Source: Actinomycetota bacterium
GTDB taxonomy: Bacteria; Actinomycetota; Coriobacteriia; Coriobacteriales; RUG844
NCBI GenBank assembly: GCA_013335845.1
Contig: JAAXUU010000016.1
Location: 1-11,524 of the forward strand
DNA length: 11,524 nucleotides
Direction: 5' to 3'
In this document: positions 1 to 11,279 of the stretch, one piece after another
Layout: each line of letters begins with the position of its first letter
How positions within the stretch are numbered: the stretch's first letter is position 1
Translations under genes and position numbers: made by a program
Notes under the pieces: model-generated
Seen by the model: the letters and a program-made list of their open reading frames with translations, nothing else
Told to the model about the DNA's origin: nothing
The model's database searches: none

Positions 1-54
1 GCTCGAGTTCGTCGATGCGTGCGAGTGCCCGATCAGCTCTCCGCCGACCTGGGC

Positions 55-104
55 GCGAAGATGCGCCGTGCGCTCCGGATACTGAACGCACGCCGCATCT
101 TCGC
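55..104. repeat. Long inverted repeat just past the ssb stop
   Basis: Arms 55-72 (GCGAAGATGCGCCGTGCG) and 87-104 (CGCACGCCGCATCTTCGC) pair over 18 bp with a single mismatch around a 14-nt loop. It lies 17 nt beyond the stop codon at 121-123. On the minus strand no T-run follows, so it would be a terminator without a U-tract or a 3'-end stabilising hairpin; on the plus strand only CTTTG follows. The 1-120 stretch is visibly richer in G+C than the first part of ssb. Its origin may be the same as that of the foreign tail on ssb. Confidence 0.6.
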
Positions 105-120
105 TTTGAGTTGGGGGGCG

Positions 121-591
121 CTACTTCAACTTGAAGGACGCCGATATGAACGACCCATCGTCAGTCGTCAGGGTTGCTTCGTAGCAATATCCGGCTTTGC
201 CCTTGGGGGTTCGCCAGTTCTGGATGAACTGGCCACCGGTACTGTCATAACGAAGCGAGGTTCCACCTGTGGTCGTGAACTCGATGTCATCGACGATAAC
301 ATCGATTTTACTGCGCTTCTGTCCATCTTTCTCCCATTGATGCCAACGTAGCTTGCCCTCGATAGCTACTTTGGTTCCTTTGGTGAGAAAGCGGGAAATG
401 CTTTCGGCGCGCGTGCCGAACATCGTGCAGTCGATGTAGTTGGGATAATCTTCCCAATCACCGGTCTGCGGATTTTTTCGGCGGTCATTCACCGCAACAC
501 CGAATCCAAGAACGGACATGCCATTCGCTGTCGAACGCATTTCCGGATCACGCGTAAGGTTTCCGCTGATTAACACTTTGTTGATACTCAT
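121..591 (-). CDS. ssb: Single-stranded DNA-binding protein with an abnormal, PxKF-like C-terminus
   Basis: SSB coats single-stranded DNA in replication, repair and recombination. Residues 1-105 form a normal bacterial SSB OB fold: an N-terminal MSINKVLISGNLTRDPE, then WEDYPNYIDCTMFG, the LTKGTKVAIEGKLR strand and IDVIVDDIEF. Known bacterial SSBs continue with a Gly/Pro/Gln-rich linker and end in an acidic tip such as DDDIPF, which recruits partner proteins. Here residues 106-156 instead read TTTGGTSLRYDS...NWRTPKGKAG...TTDDGSFISASFKLK, which resembles the last half of the PxKF domain of secreted proteins (recognised from memory, no search run). The protein ends in a basic FKLK. The gene lies 67 nt after rpsF in the usual rpsF-ssb order. 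The start has an AAGGTGG ribosome binding site 7 nt upstream. The SSB identity of the N-terminal part is certain; whether the full chimera is a real gene is doubtful. Confidence 0.93.
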   Translation of the reverse strand: MSINKVLISGNLTRDPEMRSTANGMSVLGFGVAVNDRRKNPQTGDWEDYPNYIDCTMFGTRAESISRFLTKGTKVAIEGKLRWHQWEKDGQKRSKIDVIVDDIEFTTTGGTSLRYDSTGGQFIQNWRTPKGKAGYCYEATLTTDDGSFISASFKLK

Positions 592-658: not shown

Positions 659-952
659 CTAGCTACGATCGTCGCGACGGACGATCATATAACGAACAAC
701 GTTATCCAAAATGTGGAGAACGCGATCGAGCTCAGCAATAGATGCCGGCTCTGTATGGAAATCAATAAGGGTGTAGTCCCCATCTGTGAGCTTATCGATC
801 TCAAAAGCAAGCTTGCGCTTACCCCAGGAATCGATATTGTCTACGACACCACCGTTGCCGATAATAGCGTCATCTATACGCTTCATAACAGCAAGTCGTG
901 TTTCGTCGTCGCTTGACGGGTTGATGAAAAACAGCAATTCATACGCCTTCAT
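659..952 (-). CDS. rpsF: Small ribosomal subunit protein bS6
   Basis: bS6 binds 16S rRNA in the platform of the 30S subunit together with bS18. The 97-residue length is normal for the family. Typical sequence is visible throughout: the start MKAYELLFFINPS, the GGVVDNIDSWGKRKLAFEI segment, DGDYTLIDF and the C-terminal VVRYMIVRRDD. A textbook AGGAGGTGA ribosome binding site lies just upstream of the ATG. Neighbours: ssb follows by 67 nt as in most bacteria, and an M23 peptidase-like gene ends 78 nt upstream on the same strand. I saw no convincing promoter in that 78-nt gap, so rpsF may be partly read from upstream, although ribosomal genes normally have their own promoter. rpsR (bS18), normally after ssb, does not start inside the window. 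Confidence 0.97.
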   Translation of the reverse strand: MKAYELLFFINPSSDDETRLAVMKRIDDAIIGNGGVVDNIDSWGKRKLAFEIDKLTDGDYTLIDFHTEPASIAELDRVLHILDNVVRYMIVRRDDRS

Positions 953-1030: not shown

Positions 1031-2107
1031 TCATCGGTCAGCGACTAGTGCAAGTTTATCTTTGCCTGCAGAACCCCTCCTCTCGGTATTCATACCTTTG
1101 ACCCTTGACGCTCTCCTGACGTACCTGCCGATTAGCGCCATGCCAAGACACCCGAAGGCAAGCCCCGAAACGCCGAGTAGGGGGACGGCGACCTCCCGGA
1201 ATGAATCGATTCCGAACGTATCGTTTATCAGCGCTTCGGTATCGTTTACCAGGCTTTTTACAATTTTAACGTTTTGAGGACCGCTGTTTTCGTTTGGATT
1301 TCGAACGGACTCATAATTCGAATCGAGCGTCGCACCGCCCGAAGAAACGAGACCTTCCCTGCTCGATAAAAGATTTTCTGTGCTTTCGGGCTGAATGAGA
1401 CCCTCTGCCACGACAGATTGGACAGTTGCTTGGCCGGATACTGCAGATGGGACCGGCTGGGGAGTATCGATCACACCCTTTGAGAAGCTTTCCGCAGCGA
1501 TAGATTGTTGTTCCTCAACGGTCGGATAGTCATCCGAAAGGGTCTCCTGCCAACCCAAAAGCTCGAGCGGATCATAGTACATACCCCCGCTCTTAAGCCC
1601 CATGTGCAGATGTGCGCCGGAAACGGAACGGTCGCCCGTTGCGGCAAGCGTGCCCAATGCATCCCCCACATCCACCGAAGCCCCGGTTTCGACATCGATC
1701 CTGGCGAAGGGCATCAGGGTCAGGATCCTCCCGTCCCCAAGCATCAACGAGACGGCTTGCATAGTCTGCCCCTCCGTCGCATCGCTTGCCGGAACCGTAC
1801 CGATGAATGAGACTATTCCAGCTTGCGGAGCAAAGACCGCATCACCGGCACCGGCCGGTATATCAACCCCGTGATGCACTATCTGCGTATCACCGGAGCA
1901 ATAGGTTTCATTGAACCCGCAGGCGATTTGGGGCGAGCCCGCAAGGGGCCAAGCGGCAAACGCCGAAAGGGGCGCAACGAATCGTATGCAGAACAGGATG
2001 CAGAAGAGGAGAGGGAATAGCGCGCGGACTCGCGCAGTAGTGTCTGGTCCGACCCTCTTCCGCGTTCGGAAGGGAATCCTTTGACGCGGTACATTCGGCT
2101 GACACAT
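1031..2107 (-). CDS. Exported M23-family metallopeptidase-like protein with C-terminal membrane anchor
   Basis: M23 peptidases cut peptide bridges of peptidoglycan using a zinc ion. The ATG at 2107 is chosen because AAGGAGGT lies 5 nt before it; an in-frame ATG at 2155 lacks such a site. The 358 residues contain a basic N-terminus, a signal/anchor segment at about 29-51 (ends in LSAFA), and an M23 domain at about 53-180 with zinc-ligand pattern HHGVD (H78, D82) and GAHLHMG (H166, H168). The central YxHL-type motif seen in many active members is not clear: the matching stretch reads LMPFARI. A long Ser/Glu-rich linker (190-300) leads to a membrane helix at about 306-328 and a basic tail (RYVRRASR). 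The product should be tethered at the outer face of the membrane with the domain facing the wall. Activity is probable but not certain. No LPXTG signal is present. The gene is separated from the upstream MerR gene by a terminator. Confidence 0.85.
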   Translation of the reverse strand: MCQPNVPRQRIPFRTRKRVGPDTTARVRALFPLLFCILFCIRFVAPLSAFAAWPLAGSPQIACGFNETYCSGDTQIVHHGVDIPAGAGDAVFAPQAGIVSFIGTVPASDATEGQTMQAVSLMLGDGRILTLMPFARIDVETGASVDVGDALGTLAATGDRSVSGAHLHMGLKSGGMYYDPLELLGWQETLSDDYPTVEEQQSIAAESFSKGVIDTPQPVPSAVSGQATVQSVVAEGLIQPESTENLLSSREGLVSSGGATLDSNYESVRNPNENSGPQNVKIVKSLVNDTEALINDTFGIDSFREVAVPLLGVSGLAFGCLGMALIGRYVRRASRVKGMNTERRGSAGKDKLALVADR

Positions 2108-6957: not shown

Positions 6958-7437
6958 TTACTTGGAATGTAGGAGGGAATCCGGTCCGTGCATGATGAGA
7001 GGCGCACCTAATGGCGCCGCGCCACCGCGAATGGGTCGCTTCGAATAGCATTGGATGACGAGAATACCCTCGCCCGTCTCTCTTTCACCGAGATAGACGA
7101 AGAGCGTCGTTTGCCCTGACGGGTACGGATTCCCCCCGTCGTCAGAGGGACGCGATTCCGGCAGTCCGAAGATGTCCTCGGTCGAGTCGACCAGAATGGC
7201 ATATGCTTCGATCTCCCCGTTGTTCTCGAGGAAGAGGCGGGCATTCTCCAGTACGGTGTCGAGAGATCCGTGGGCGCCGGAATCCACCTCGAAACGATAG
7301 CTACCTTCATCTGCCCGTTTGTATACGAGTGTCGGGGGCATTCCGCCCTTTCGCGGATGCATATCGAGCAGAGTGATCACAGCCCATGAGCAGAGCTTCT
7401 GCAGCTGTTCGCTTACGGGTGGTTTTTCATTCTGCAT
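6958..7437 (-). CDS. Unknown protein B: probable distant paralogue of protein A
   Basis: Unrecognised family. The ATG at 7437 (MQNEKPPVSEQ) has GGGAG 5 nt upstream; an in-frame ATG at 7452 is possible and would add five residues. The 159 residues show helix 8-27 (VSEQLQKLCSWAVITLLDM), strands near 35-51, helix 59-73 (LDTVLENARLFLENN), a strand EIEAYAILVDS, a loop with GLPESRPSDDGG, and strands TTLFVYLGE and GILVIQCYSKRP. This order and several residues (SE.L.K at the start, YxxxxDxxxD after the second helix) match protein A, but the acidic tail is absent; the C-terminus is Gly/Pro/Leu-rich instead. The gene overlaps the end of the YaiI-family gene by 11 nt, which suggests coupled translation. 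No signal peptide is seen; a cytoplasmic location is likely. Confidence 0.85.
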   Translation of the reverse strand: MQNEKPPVSEQLQKLCSWAVITLLDMHPRKGGMPPTLVYKRADEGSYRFEVDSGAHGSLDTVLENARLFLENNGEIEAYAILVDSTEDIFGLPESRPSDDGGNPYPSGQTTLFVYLGERETGEGILVIQCYSKRPIRGGAAPLGAPLIMHGPDSLLHSK

Positions 7438-7930
7438 GGACACTCCCGTCATCGGAAGCCGCCTCGAGTTGTTCCTTTATGACGCGTTCGAACATGCAGC
7501 AAAAGTGCTCGCGGTCATCCTCGAGGAAAGCGCGAGGACCACCGGTGCGTCCCCCGCTGCGACGGATCTTCTTCTCGACATGACGTAATTCGAGATCCAT
7601 ATCGATAGTGAGAAGCGAGTGCACGCGGCCACGAGGGCTGATCGCCCGAGCCCCACGTCCGAGAACCATGGCCGCAAGGCCGGTGTCTTGGGTGAGGACG
7701 ATATCCGTGCGTTTGAGCTGCTCGACTATGGCGAAGTCGGCCGAGTCGGCGCCGGTCTGCACTGTGAACACCTCGACATCGGCGTCGCCGCGTCTCAGAT
7801 GCTTCTGAAGATTCTGCGTGCCGTTAGCCACCAATACGACCGGCACCTTGTATTTACGGGCGAGAGCAAGAGCTTCCCGCATAACAGGGCATGCATCGGC
7901 ATCGATGAAAAGCGTCGGTTTCTCCGTCAC
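7427..7930 (-). CDS. YaiI/YqxD family protein (UPF0178, DUF188)
   Basis: A conserved bacterial family with a PIN-like fold and no firmly assigned role. The 167 residues carry the family signatures: FIDADACPVMREAL at 8-21, VANGTQNL, VQTGADSADFAIVEQL at 57-72, TQDTGLAAMVLGRGARAISPRG at 80-101 and RTGGPRAF at 128-135. The acidic residues D10, D12, D65 and D82 are placed as in a PIN-type metal site. The length is slightly above the usual 150. The start is GTG, 6 nt after the galE stop, with GAGG overlapping the end of galE, so translation is probably coupled. Its 3' end overlaps gene B. Adjacency to galE looks like simple operon sharing rather than a shared pathway. Confidence 0.93.
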   Translation of the reverse strand: MTEKPTLFIDADACPVMREALALARKYKVPVVLVANGTQNLQKHLRRGDADVEVFTVQTGADSADFAIVEQLKRTDIVLTQDTGLAAMVLGRGARAISPRGRVHSLLTIDMDLELRHVEKKIRRSGGRTGGPRAFLEDDREHFCCMFERVIKEQLEAASDDGSVHAE

Positions 7931-8966: not shown

Positions 8967-11279
8967 TCAACCGAGCGCCGCTACAAAAGCTTGTCGAAGT
9001 GCCGCCGGGACGACGTCCTCCCCACCCAGCCACGCGAGTCGATCCACCTCATACTTATGATCAGGTACCACATCGAGCACGGATCTGCCCGAAACCGAAT
9101 CGTCTGCAAGGAGAAGGAGTCCTCCTCGTTCCCCGAGAAGAGGAGCCGCGGCTAGGGCATCGGGGAAATTAAGCCCCGTGGCAACGCCGATATCCGTCCA
9201 AGATAATACACCTTCCGCTACTGCGAATTCTGCGATATCTCTACACGTATCATAACGCGTGAGCCCACCATAGCGCATGACGGATAAACCTGCATCTTCC
9301 AATCGTGTAGCAGTCGTCGCGGGAATGACATCGTCCGCCCCAACAATGACCACACGATCGAAGTCCCCCGAGGTGAGCAGGGTATAGGTACTCGACGCGA
9401 GGCTTCCATCGGACGCGGTTAGGAAGATGGGGCATTTCGACGCATAGGCATAGGGTGAGATCGATAGCGCATCCGGGTAGTTCGACCCCAACGCCACGAT
9501 GGCAGTTCGGTTTTCAGACCAAAGGCCCCCTGCTCCAACGCTCTTCCCCTCGGCATAGATCTGCTCGGCGGTTTCGATTCGTGTTGCGCCTGCAAGCCGC
9601 ACAGATGTGAGGCCGCACAACTGATCGATCTGCGTTTTCACGCTCTCACTTATCGCTCCGGATCCGCCGACGATATAGACATGCGCAGGATCGAGTTCCT
9701 CAAGCGCCGTTCTCGTCTGTTCGGAAAGCGCATTTGTGGCGGTGAGGAGTATAGGCGCATCGAAACCTCCTGCCAAACCGGCAGCCGCCAGCGCATCGGG
9801 GAAATTGTCTCCTGTGGCGATAAGCACCGTGCCTCCCACAGCAGGGACCTCATCGGAAAACGCTTGGACTATCTCGAGCATAGTGTCATAACGCGTTGAT
9901 CCTGCAAGTTCTTCGATATCGACGGTCCTACTTAATGCAGCAGTTGCATCAACCTGTCCCCACCCGTAATCGATATCCTTTCCCGGATCTCCATAATCAG
10001 TGGCGGTCCCGTAAAGGATCTCCTTCACGTCGCTAATAGATCGCGTTGCATCCTGTGCGAAAACCAAAGCTGCGACGCCGGCAACAATCGGCGAGGCCAT
10101 GCTCGTCCCACTTTTGTAGCCGTAGTCATAGGGGGGAGATGGATTTAGCAGGTTCGTTCCTACCGGCACGGTACTGTATATATATGATCCCGGTGCAGAG
10201 ATGTCTTTTTGCGGGCCATAGTTTGAAAATGCCGAACGCTCGGTGTTTTCATCGAGTGAAATGACGCTCACGCACACTTCGAAATCGGCGGGATAGTACG
10301 GTTCTGACGAACCGTTGTTCCCCGCTGCACAAACGGTTAAGATGCCCCGCTCAGCCGCTTGGTTGATGACACCCTCCAACGCCGAATCGTACATCGTGGT
10401 GCCCAAGCTCAGATTGATCACGCGCAAACTGGGAATGTCAGCCTCGAATAGATATTCATATGCCTCGATAAGCGTTGCGGTGTTAGCATTGACCCCACCC
10501 CCGCTCAAGACATAGAACACATTGATGGGGATGATCGACGCATTATAGGAAACGCCCGCGATTCCCTGCCCGTTATTCGCTTCTGCTGCGATAATCCCCG
10601 CGACGTGGGTACCGTGGTCTTTGACGTACCCCGTGAGTGGCTGTCTCAGATACGCATCATAGGCATGGGCATAATCGATGGTATCGACAAGGTCGGGATG
10701 GCTCATGTCGATTCCCGTATCTATTACAGCAATACTGACCGTTTCTTCGACTCGCACTAAATCCCACGCTGTGTAAGCATTGATGCTATCCAAATACCAT
10801 TGTGCACTTGCAGCATAGGGATCATCTACGATGGTATCGAGTACGATCTCTTCCTCGGCAGTTTCCTCGACCAATTCATAGATGTAGTTCGGTTGCGCAT
10901 ACTCGACTGCGGGGTTGGCGTTCAGTTCAGCGAGTGTCTCATTTGCGGTGGCTCCATCGAGAATCTCGACCACAACCAGGTCTTCCGATTCGATGGTCTC
11001 CTCTGTGAGCTCCTCAGAAGGAGTCGCCTCAATCGCATCGACCGCTGCGCTCGCCTCGGCTACCGAAGCGCCTTCCTTGAACACGACGAGTACTTCATCC
11101 TCCACATAGGTGACCCCAGCATCGGCTTCACTCAGTGAATAGGTAGTCTCTTCTTCGAGATTGGTTGAGACGGGACTCTCCCCCGTGGCGAATGCGCCTG
11201 GAACCAGCCAGAGCGCCAATGCAAGCACCAGCACACAATTGAGAATCACTACGAGCTTTTTCTGAAGCTTGTTGTCCAC
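8967..11279 (-). CDS. Cell-wall-anchored S8 subtilisin-like serine protease with three CWB2 repeats
   Basis: An exported protease. Signal peptide about 1-32 (VVILNCVLVLALALWLVPGAFA). Residues 57-136 resemble a subtilase propeptide (YVEDEVLVVFKEG ... NPAVEYAQPNYIYEL). The S8 catalytic domain spans about 150-450 with Asp187 (AVIDTGID), His222 (DHGTHVAG), oxyanion Asn321 (AAGNNG) and Ser393 (SGTSMASP), so the triad is complete. Three cell-wall-binding repeat 2 modules follow at about 457-545, 559-650 and 668-755, each starting RxxGxxRxxT/D and containing GxNxPDALAAAP-type and VGGxxxI-type motifs. CWB2 modules bind secondary wall polymers, so the enzyme should stay on the cell surface. The region between propeptide and catalytic domain is acidic (ETAEEEIVLD). 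The start is GTG with GAGG 7 nt upstream. It is the first gene of the operon and has the only long leader. Confidence 0.95.
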   Translation of the reverse strand: MDNKLQKKLVVILNCVLVLALALWLVPGAFATGESPVSTNLEEETTYSLSEADAGVTYVEDEVLVVFKEGASVAEASAAVDAIEATPSEELTEETIESEDLVVVEILDGATANETLAELNANPAVEYAQPNYIYELVEETAEEEIVLDTIVDDPYAASAQWYLDSINAYTAWDLVRVEETVSIAVIDTGIDMSHPDLVDTIDYAHAYDAYLRQPLTGYVKDHGTHVAGIIAAEANNGQGIAGVSYNASIIPINVFYVLSGGGVNANTATLIEAYEYLFEADIPSLRVINLSLGTTMYDSALEGVINQAAERGILTVCAAGNNGSSEPYYPADFEVCVSVISLDENTERSAFSNYGPQKDISAPGSYIYSTVPVGTNLLNPSPPYDYGYKSGTSMASPIVAGVAALVFAQDATRSISDVKEILYGTATDYGDPGKDIDYGWGQVDATAALSRTVDIEELAGSTRYDTMLEIVQAFSDEVPAVGGTVLIATGDNFPDALAAAGLAGGFDAPILLTATNALSEQTRTALEELDPAHVYIVGGSGAISESVKTQIDQLCGLTSVRLAGATRIETAEQIYAEGKSVGAGGLWSENRTAIVALGSNYPDALSISPYAYASKCPIFLTASDGSLASSTYTLLTSGDFDRVVIVGADDVIPATTATRLEDAGLSVMRYGGLTRYDTCRDIAEFAVAEGVLSWTDIGVATGLNFPDALAAAPLLGERGGLLLLADDSVSGRSVLDVVPDHKYEVDRLAWLGGEDVVPAALRQAFVAALG

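Follow-up and report, generated by a model that had tools for sequence, protein, structure and literature searches.

The closest described counterparts of the locus examined here are the bacterial SSB as encoded in the rpsF-ssb-rpsR operon of Coriobacteriia, the PxKF domain, and the chimeric contig end, a known class of artefact in draft assemblies. Comparison of the locus among relatives, proposed together with the original prediction, gave the following picture of the operon: across 60 ssb rows from 58 related loci, the protein ended in PF in all 60 (a strict acidic-tip pattern fitted 56, and the remaining four finished in RIPF or DIPF), rpsF lay upstream in 53, and rpsR lay within 1.5 kb downstream in 54, one of these counts being distant (L011, second ssb, 1,339 bases). 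The loci counted were L002, which belongs to the genome studied here, L005-L060, and L064; L005 and L049 are apparently one contig, both being 7,516 long with an identical SSB. Loci L061-L063 and L065-L086, which belong to other phyla or are distant by title and identity, were left out, as were OB matches spanning fewer than 61 residues or beginning ahead of the locus. In two genomes of the same family, the SSB ended in KSYDNIPPAPPTADAYADEDIPF (G002) and RDMPAAPTADAYADEDIPF (G001), with rpsR as the next gene in both. As a separate observation, Collinsella bouchesdurhonensis (L048) carries two 123-aa ssb copies about 1.3 kb apart that have the same tail, with DEDCPF rather than DEDIPF, and no rpsF or rpsR was found within 1.5 kb of them.

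The window, that is, the whole stretch of 11,524 nucleotides analyzed, constitutes the entire contig C94 of a draft genome of 1.98 Mb in 429 contigs (85.75% complete, 2.23% contamination). Near its left end, the open reading frame at 591..121 (minus strand) is intact, starts with ATG, and encodes 156 aa. The Pfam SSB profile (PF00436) spans residues 3-105 of the product (E 6.4e-30; 103.7 bits, cutoff 26), in agreement with the prediction of an OB fold that is normal up to residue 105. These first 105 codons (277..591, minus strand) are authentic to the genome, as indicated by the Pfam match, by the identity of 103 of 105 residues to two normal SSBs (P0002 and P0003), and by the presence upstream of rpsF (659..952, minus strand), which encodes 30S ribosomal protein S6 (PF01250, E 1.9e-27) and is the sole rpsF match in its own genome. 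Further upstream on the same strand, a 374-aa protein with an M23 peptidase domain is encoded at 1031-2155. At the other end of the window, 8967-11279 (minus strand) encodes a 770-aa subtilase with an N-terminal prodomain and three cell-wall-binding 2 stretches, which is likely a secreted, wall-bound protease judging from this domain content.

The remainder of the frame belongs to another family. NCBIfam NF038114 ("rightmost", PxKF domain) spans residues 99-156 (66.7 bits, cutoff 35), covering profile positions 54-113 of 113 up to the extreme end of the domain, and residues 106-156 scored by themselves still reached 65.0 bits. On profile evidence, these residues read, far beyond chance, as the last half of a PxKF domain, and the original prediction was right on this point. 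Only positions 54-113 of the 113-position domain were matched, and the C-terminus is SFKLK in place of a linker and an acidic PF tip. The corresponding stretch, 121..276 on the minus strand, would thus represent the last half of the PxKF domain and the stop codon of another gene. It is followed by a terminator-like hairpin (55..104, minus strand; self reverse-complement match 84%); the stretch 40-123 folds at -47.7 kcal/mol (z -5.12), and such a strong hairpin after the stop codon fits, as expected, the 3' end of a gene.

The possibility that this tail is the normal SSB C-terminus of the lineage was rejected. Among the 120 SSB matches listed, the best of at least 7,998 scored, 116 end in the PF tip; the four that do not are the window protein and P0072, P0084, and P0120, and the PxKF motifs searched for occur in the window protein alone, being absent from the other 119. 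Within these listed matches, residues 106-156 therefore do not correspond to the usual C-terminus of related SSBs; such a correspondence was what the original prediction had named as refuting it. Any fusion present in another species would be expected near the top of this ranking, as both halves would score, and the 120 matches listed of at least 7,998 show none.

Relatives of the tail were found at greater distance. At E 1e-4, the 51-residue tail had no relative in the 395 other genomes of the class sample (1 of 396 when the window's own is counted), and in the phylum sample 16 of 396 genomes matched, including the window's own, the other 15 of 395 being labelled "same phylum". The 18 matching places in the phylum sample reach up to 70% identity and fall within open frames that measure 199-1,653 aa. 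A search restricted to proteins of about 28-89 aa yielded 13 relatives, the best of which (P0121) was 77% identical, and a protein scan of viral contigs returned one (L089; 69% over 35 residues). No SSB OB match was detected in the 19 PxKF loci formed by the 18 phylum-sample places and L089 (tblastn, E 0.01, loci of 2-4 kb). The tail protein had no match in phages and the tail DNA none in plasmids, and exact and degenerate patterns of donor and fusion had none in viral contigs. A contig scan whose query included the tail was uninformative on PxKF donors, as the best 80 of 540 hits were SSB matches, and a literature search on "PxKF domain" found nothing.

Within the same bin, no other PxKF match exceeded the cutoff; the one sub-threshold match (C418, 12.5 bits, profile positions 5-37) was rejected as a source of the tail, since it falls, by eye, in an unrelated long ORF. 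A second copy of the tail was likewise rejected: the 23 DNA matches to window positions 1-330 comprised the window itself, the OB part of an ssb on contig C46, the complement of the hairpin, and 20 short matches of at most 31.9 bits. Codon usage lent no support to a foreign origin, as the tail ranks above 135 of 171 same-length segments taken from the window's own genes in codon score, although 51 codons make a weak test. On this evidence, the tail could derive from a gene of this very genome that is missing from the draft, or from a neighbor whose composition is similar.

The join between the two halves sits 276-291 bases from the contig end (base 1 of C94). By sequence comparison, it lies in or beside the codons for DDIEF, at about 277-291; its exact position is blurred by the NF038114 match, which begins as early as residue 99, and by P0123, a PxKF relative with a DDIEF of its own. 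At this site, the normal SSBs P0002 and P0003 read VDDIEFMSARG, P0123 reads SDDIEFTTTGGTSLRYD (including SDDIEFTTTGG), and viral L089 reads DPIEFTTTGGTSLRYD (including DPIEFTTTGG; DNA, ATCGAGTTCACGACCAC). Comparison of the SSBs with the PxKF relatives thus marks the DDIEF codons (277..291, minus strand) as a join zone possibly common to both parent genes. The full DDIEF occurs in 1 of the 13 short PxKF relatives (P0123) and EFTT in 4 of 13; all 19 DNA rows of PxKF relatives examined lack DDIEF, with DDIE present in L099, L102, and L114 and IEF in L089. The C46 ssb and L089 have 10 bases of DNA, ATCGAGTTCA, in common at the join point. Hence, the parent genes may share codons here, to the extent that relatives of the tail can stand in for the donor. 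Among the contigs of the genome, the window was the sole match to a degenerate DDIEFTTTG pattern. With sharing this short, a chimeric read or a short-overlap join would be a likelier route than the long k-mers of an assembler. The reading frame continues through the join and the tail closes with a proper stop; a random join preserves the frame about one time in three.

Strong evidence on the choice between the readings came from the gene expected next. The original prediction had proposed looking for rpsR in the genome, and a whole-bin search detected a single copy, at 13307-13453 (minus strand) of contig C27, its start at base 127 from the end of this 13,639-bp contig. The reverse strand of the C27 end, in a frame other than that of rpsR, encodes DAMPAAPTVDAYSDEDIPF followed by a stop codon, and 65 bases separate this stop from the rpsR ATG. 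This stretch finishes in YSDEDIPF, its tip DEDIPF adjoining rpsR, and the gene order that follows is rpsR (PF01084), a DUF2232 membrane protein gene, and rplI (PF01281, PF03948). In sequence, the C27 end encodes the normal tail of an SSB, and it does so at the usual site for one. The continuation of ssb is thus found elsewhere in the assembly, with about 53 bases missing between the contigs. The first base of C27 would fall about 53 bases past the join, as estimated from P0002 and P0003 on the assumption of equal tail length; the ends of C94 and C27 therefore do not overlap, and the true junction is not read.

The two contigs are bridged by P0002 and P0003, which are normal SSBs of 142 aa from other contigs in the protein collection. 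Each is identical to the window OB fold at the 103 positions mentioned above, the two differences being the same in both, and the C27 tail agrees with P0002 at 16 of 19 and with P0003 at 18 of 19 residues, 18 residues lying between the OB and tail parts. A normal SSB of a very close relative thus consists of the OB fold encoded on C94 and the tail encoded on C27. Both contig ends, what they encode, and the bridging proteins are direct observations. The bin has one match each for rpsF, in the window, and rpsR, on C27; rpsF lies upstream of the window ssb, and C94 stops before any rpsR. The tetranucleotide correlation of C27 with C94 (592 to the end) was 0.913, compared with 0.827 for the best of the 45 related loci over 9 kb (among L007-L060), which argues that C27 and C94 come from one organism. 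With completeness of the bin at 85.75% and contamination at 2.23%, an origin of C27 from a sister strain, or copies absent from the bin, would be possible in principle.

These observations led us to reject a fixed, functional SSB-PxKF fusion that replaced the normal chromosomal SSB of the species, which we rate as the least probable of all the readings considered. In its favor, the frame runs open through both halves, each half scores well against its family, and the function of the lost tip could be supplied by a second SSB; however, the normal tail adjoins rpsR on C27 in the same bin, near-identical SSBs retain the normal tail, PxKF relatives occur in loci without an SSB OB match, and half a domain would be unlikely to fold. 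We conclude with high confidence that the left end of the window is a chimeric contig end and not a new SSB, because the normal ssb end lies on C27 of the same draft, beside the rpsR expected next. The true locus would be the usual operon rpsF-ssb-rpsR followed by the DUF2232 gene and rplI, with an SSB ending in YSDEDIPF. The draft assembly would have run C94 beyond codon 105 of ssb and on into an unrelated PxKF gene at its 3' end; a chimeric read, or a misjoin over a short overlap at codons common to both genes, may have been the cause, leaving the real continuation (ssb tail, rpsR, DUF2232, and rplI) stranded as the end of C27. Library preparation or assembly would be the source of the misjoin, whose exact point is placed by inference. 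Of the three options raised in the original prediction, the contig chimera near position 276 was thus supported, with its join refined to about 277-291, and the real fusion was not; the replacement of linker and tip as a biological feature found no support. Several points speak against a chimera: the kept frame and proper stop, the non-foreign codons, the donor that was not found, the full DDIEF microhomology in only one of 13 relatives, and the contig ends that lack an overlap.

The genome does contain another full-length ssb whose product has an acidic tip, a possibility that had also been suggested as worth checking; it lies on C46 at 7304-7657 (minus strand; 1468-1854, minus strand, in L002). 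Its 128-aa product ends in DADADIPF and is 84% identical to the window protein over residues 1-116. In the OB fold, 94 of 105 residues are the same, so that this genome has two SSBs of unusual similarity. Neither rpsF nor rpsR was detected within 1.5 kb of the C46 gene. Of the five proteins of this locus compared with PHROGs, the SSB matched phrog_44, a pyrophosphohydrolase matched phrog_2245, and three had no match, while the gene after ssb gave a Pfam Lin1244_N match; the neighborhood is likely, though not proven to be, a prophage. Owing to this gene, a cell living with the window's SSB alone is not implied. The C46 ssb is not needed for explaining the window.

The C46 gene also bears on a genuine rearrangement confined to a fraction of the population, to which we assign a small chance: recombination at or near DDIEF would have left some cells with an ssb fused to a PxKF gene end. 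Those cells would use the C46 ssb or die out, and other cells would keep the normal operon seen on C27. The in-frame join with its own stop and terminator-like hairpin, the tail codon usage compatible with the genome, and the full SSB with an acidic tip on C46 are consistent with this scenario, but the single rpsF and single rpsR match, the lack of any further above-cutoff PxKF match in the bin, the absence of a fusion copy among the 120 SSB matches listed of at least 7,998 scored, and the position of the join next to a contig end speak against it. Its more specific form, in which a subpopulation carries a real in-frame ssb-PxKF gene recombined near DDIEF and the tip of the prophage SSB supplies partner recruitment, has a slightly smaller chance still.

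In practical terms, an in-frame join lets two unrelated genes pass for a new fusion protein, and the present one should not enter databases as a new SSB type; looking in the same bin for the expected operon neighbor, here rpsR, gave a strong answer without reads. Compared with known systems, the window resembles the bacterial SSB (PF00436/TIGR00621) and the Coriobacteriia rpsF-ssb-rpsR operon in the OB fold (residues 1-105) and in rpsF upstream, but lacks the linker, the acidic tip, and rpsR; a tail, a tip, and rpsR are on C27. Its tail resembles the C-terminal PxKF domain of NF038114 through the domain end, followed by a stop and a hairpin, but lacks the first half of the domain; its relatives stand in open frames of 199-1,653 aa, and the loci retrieved for them showed no SSB OB fold. 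With the chimeric contig end, it shares the abrupt join near the end of a contig, the continuation at the end of another contig, and possibly a short shared sequence.
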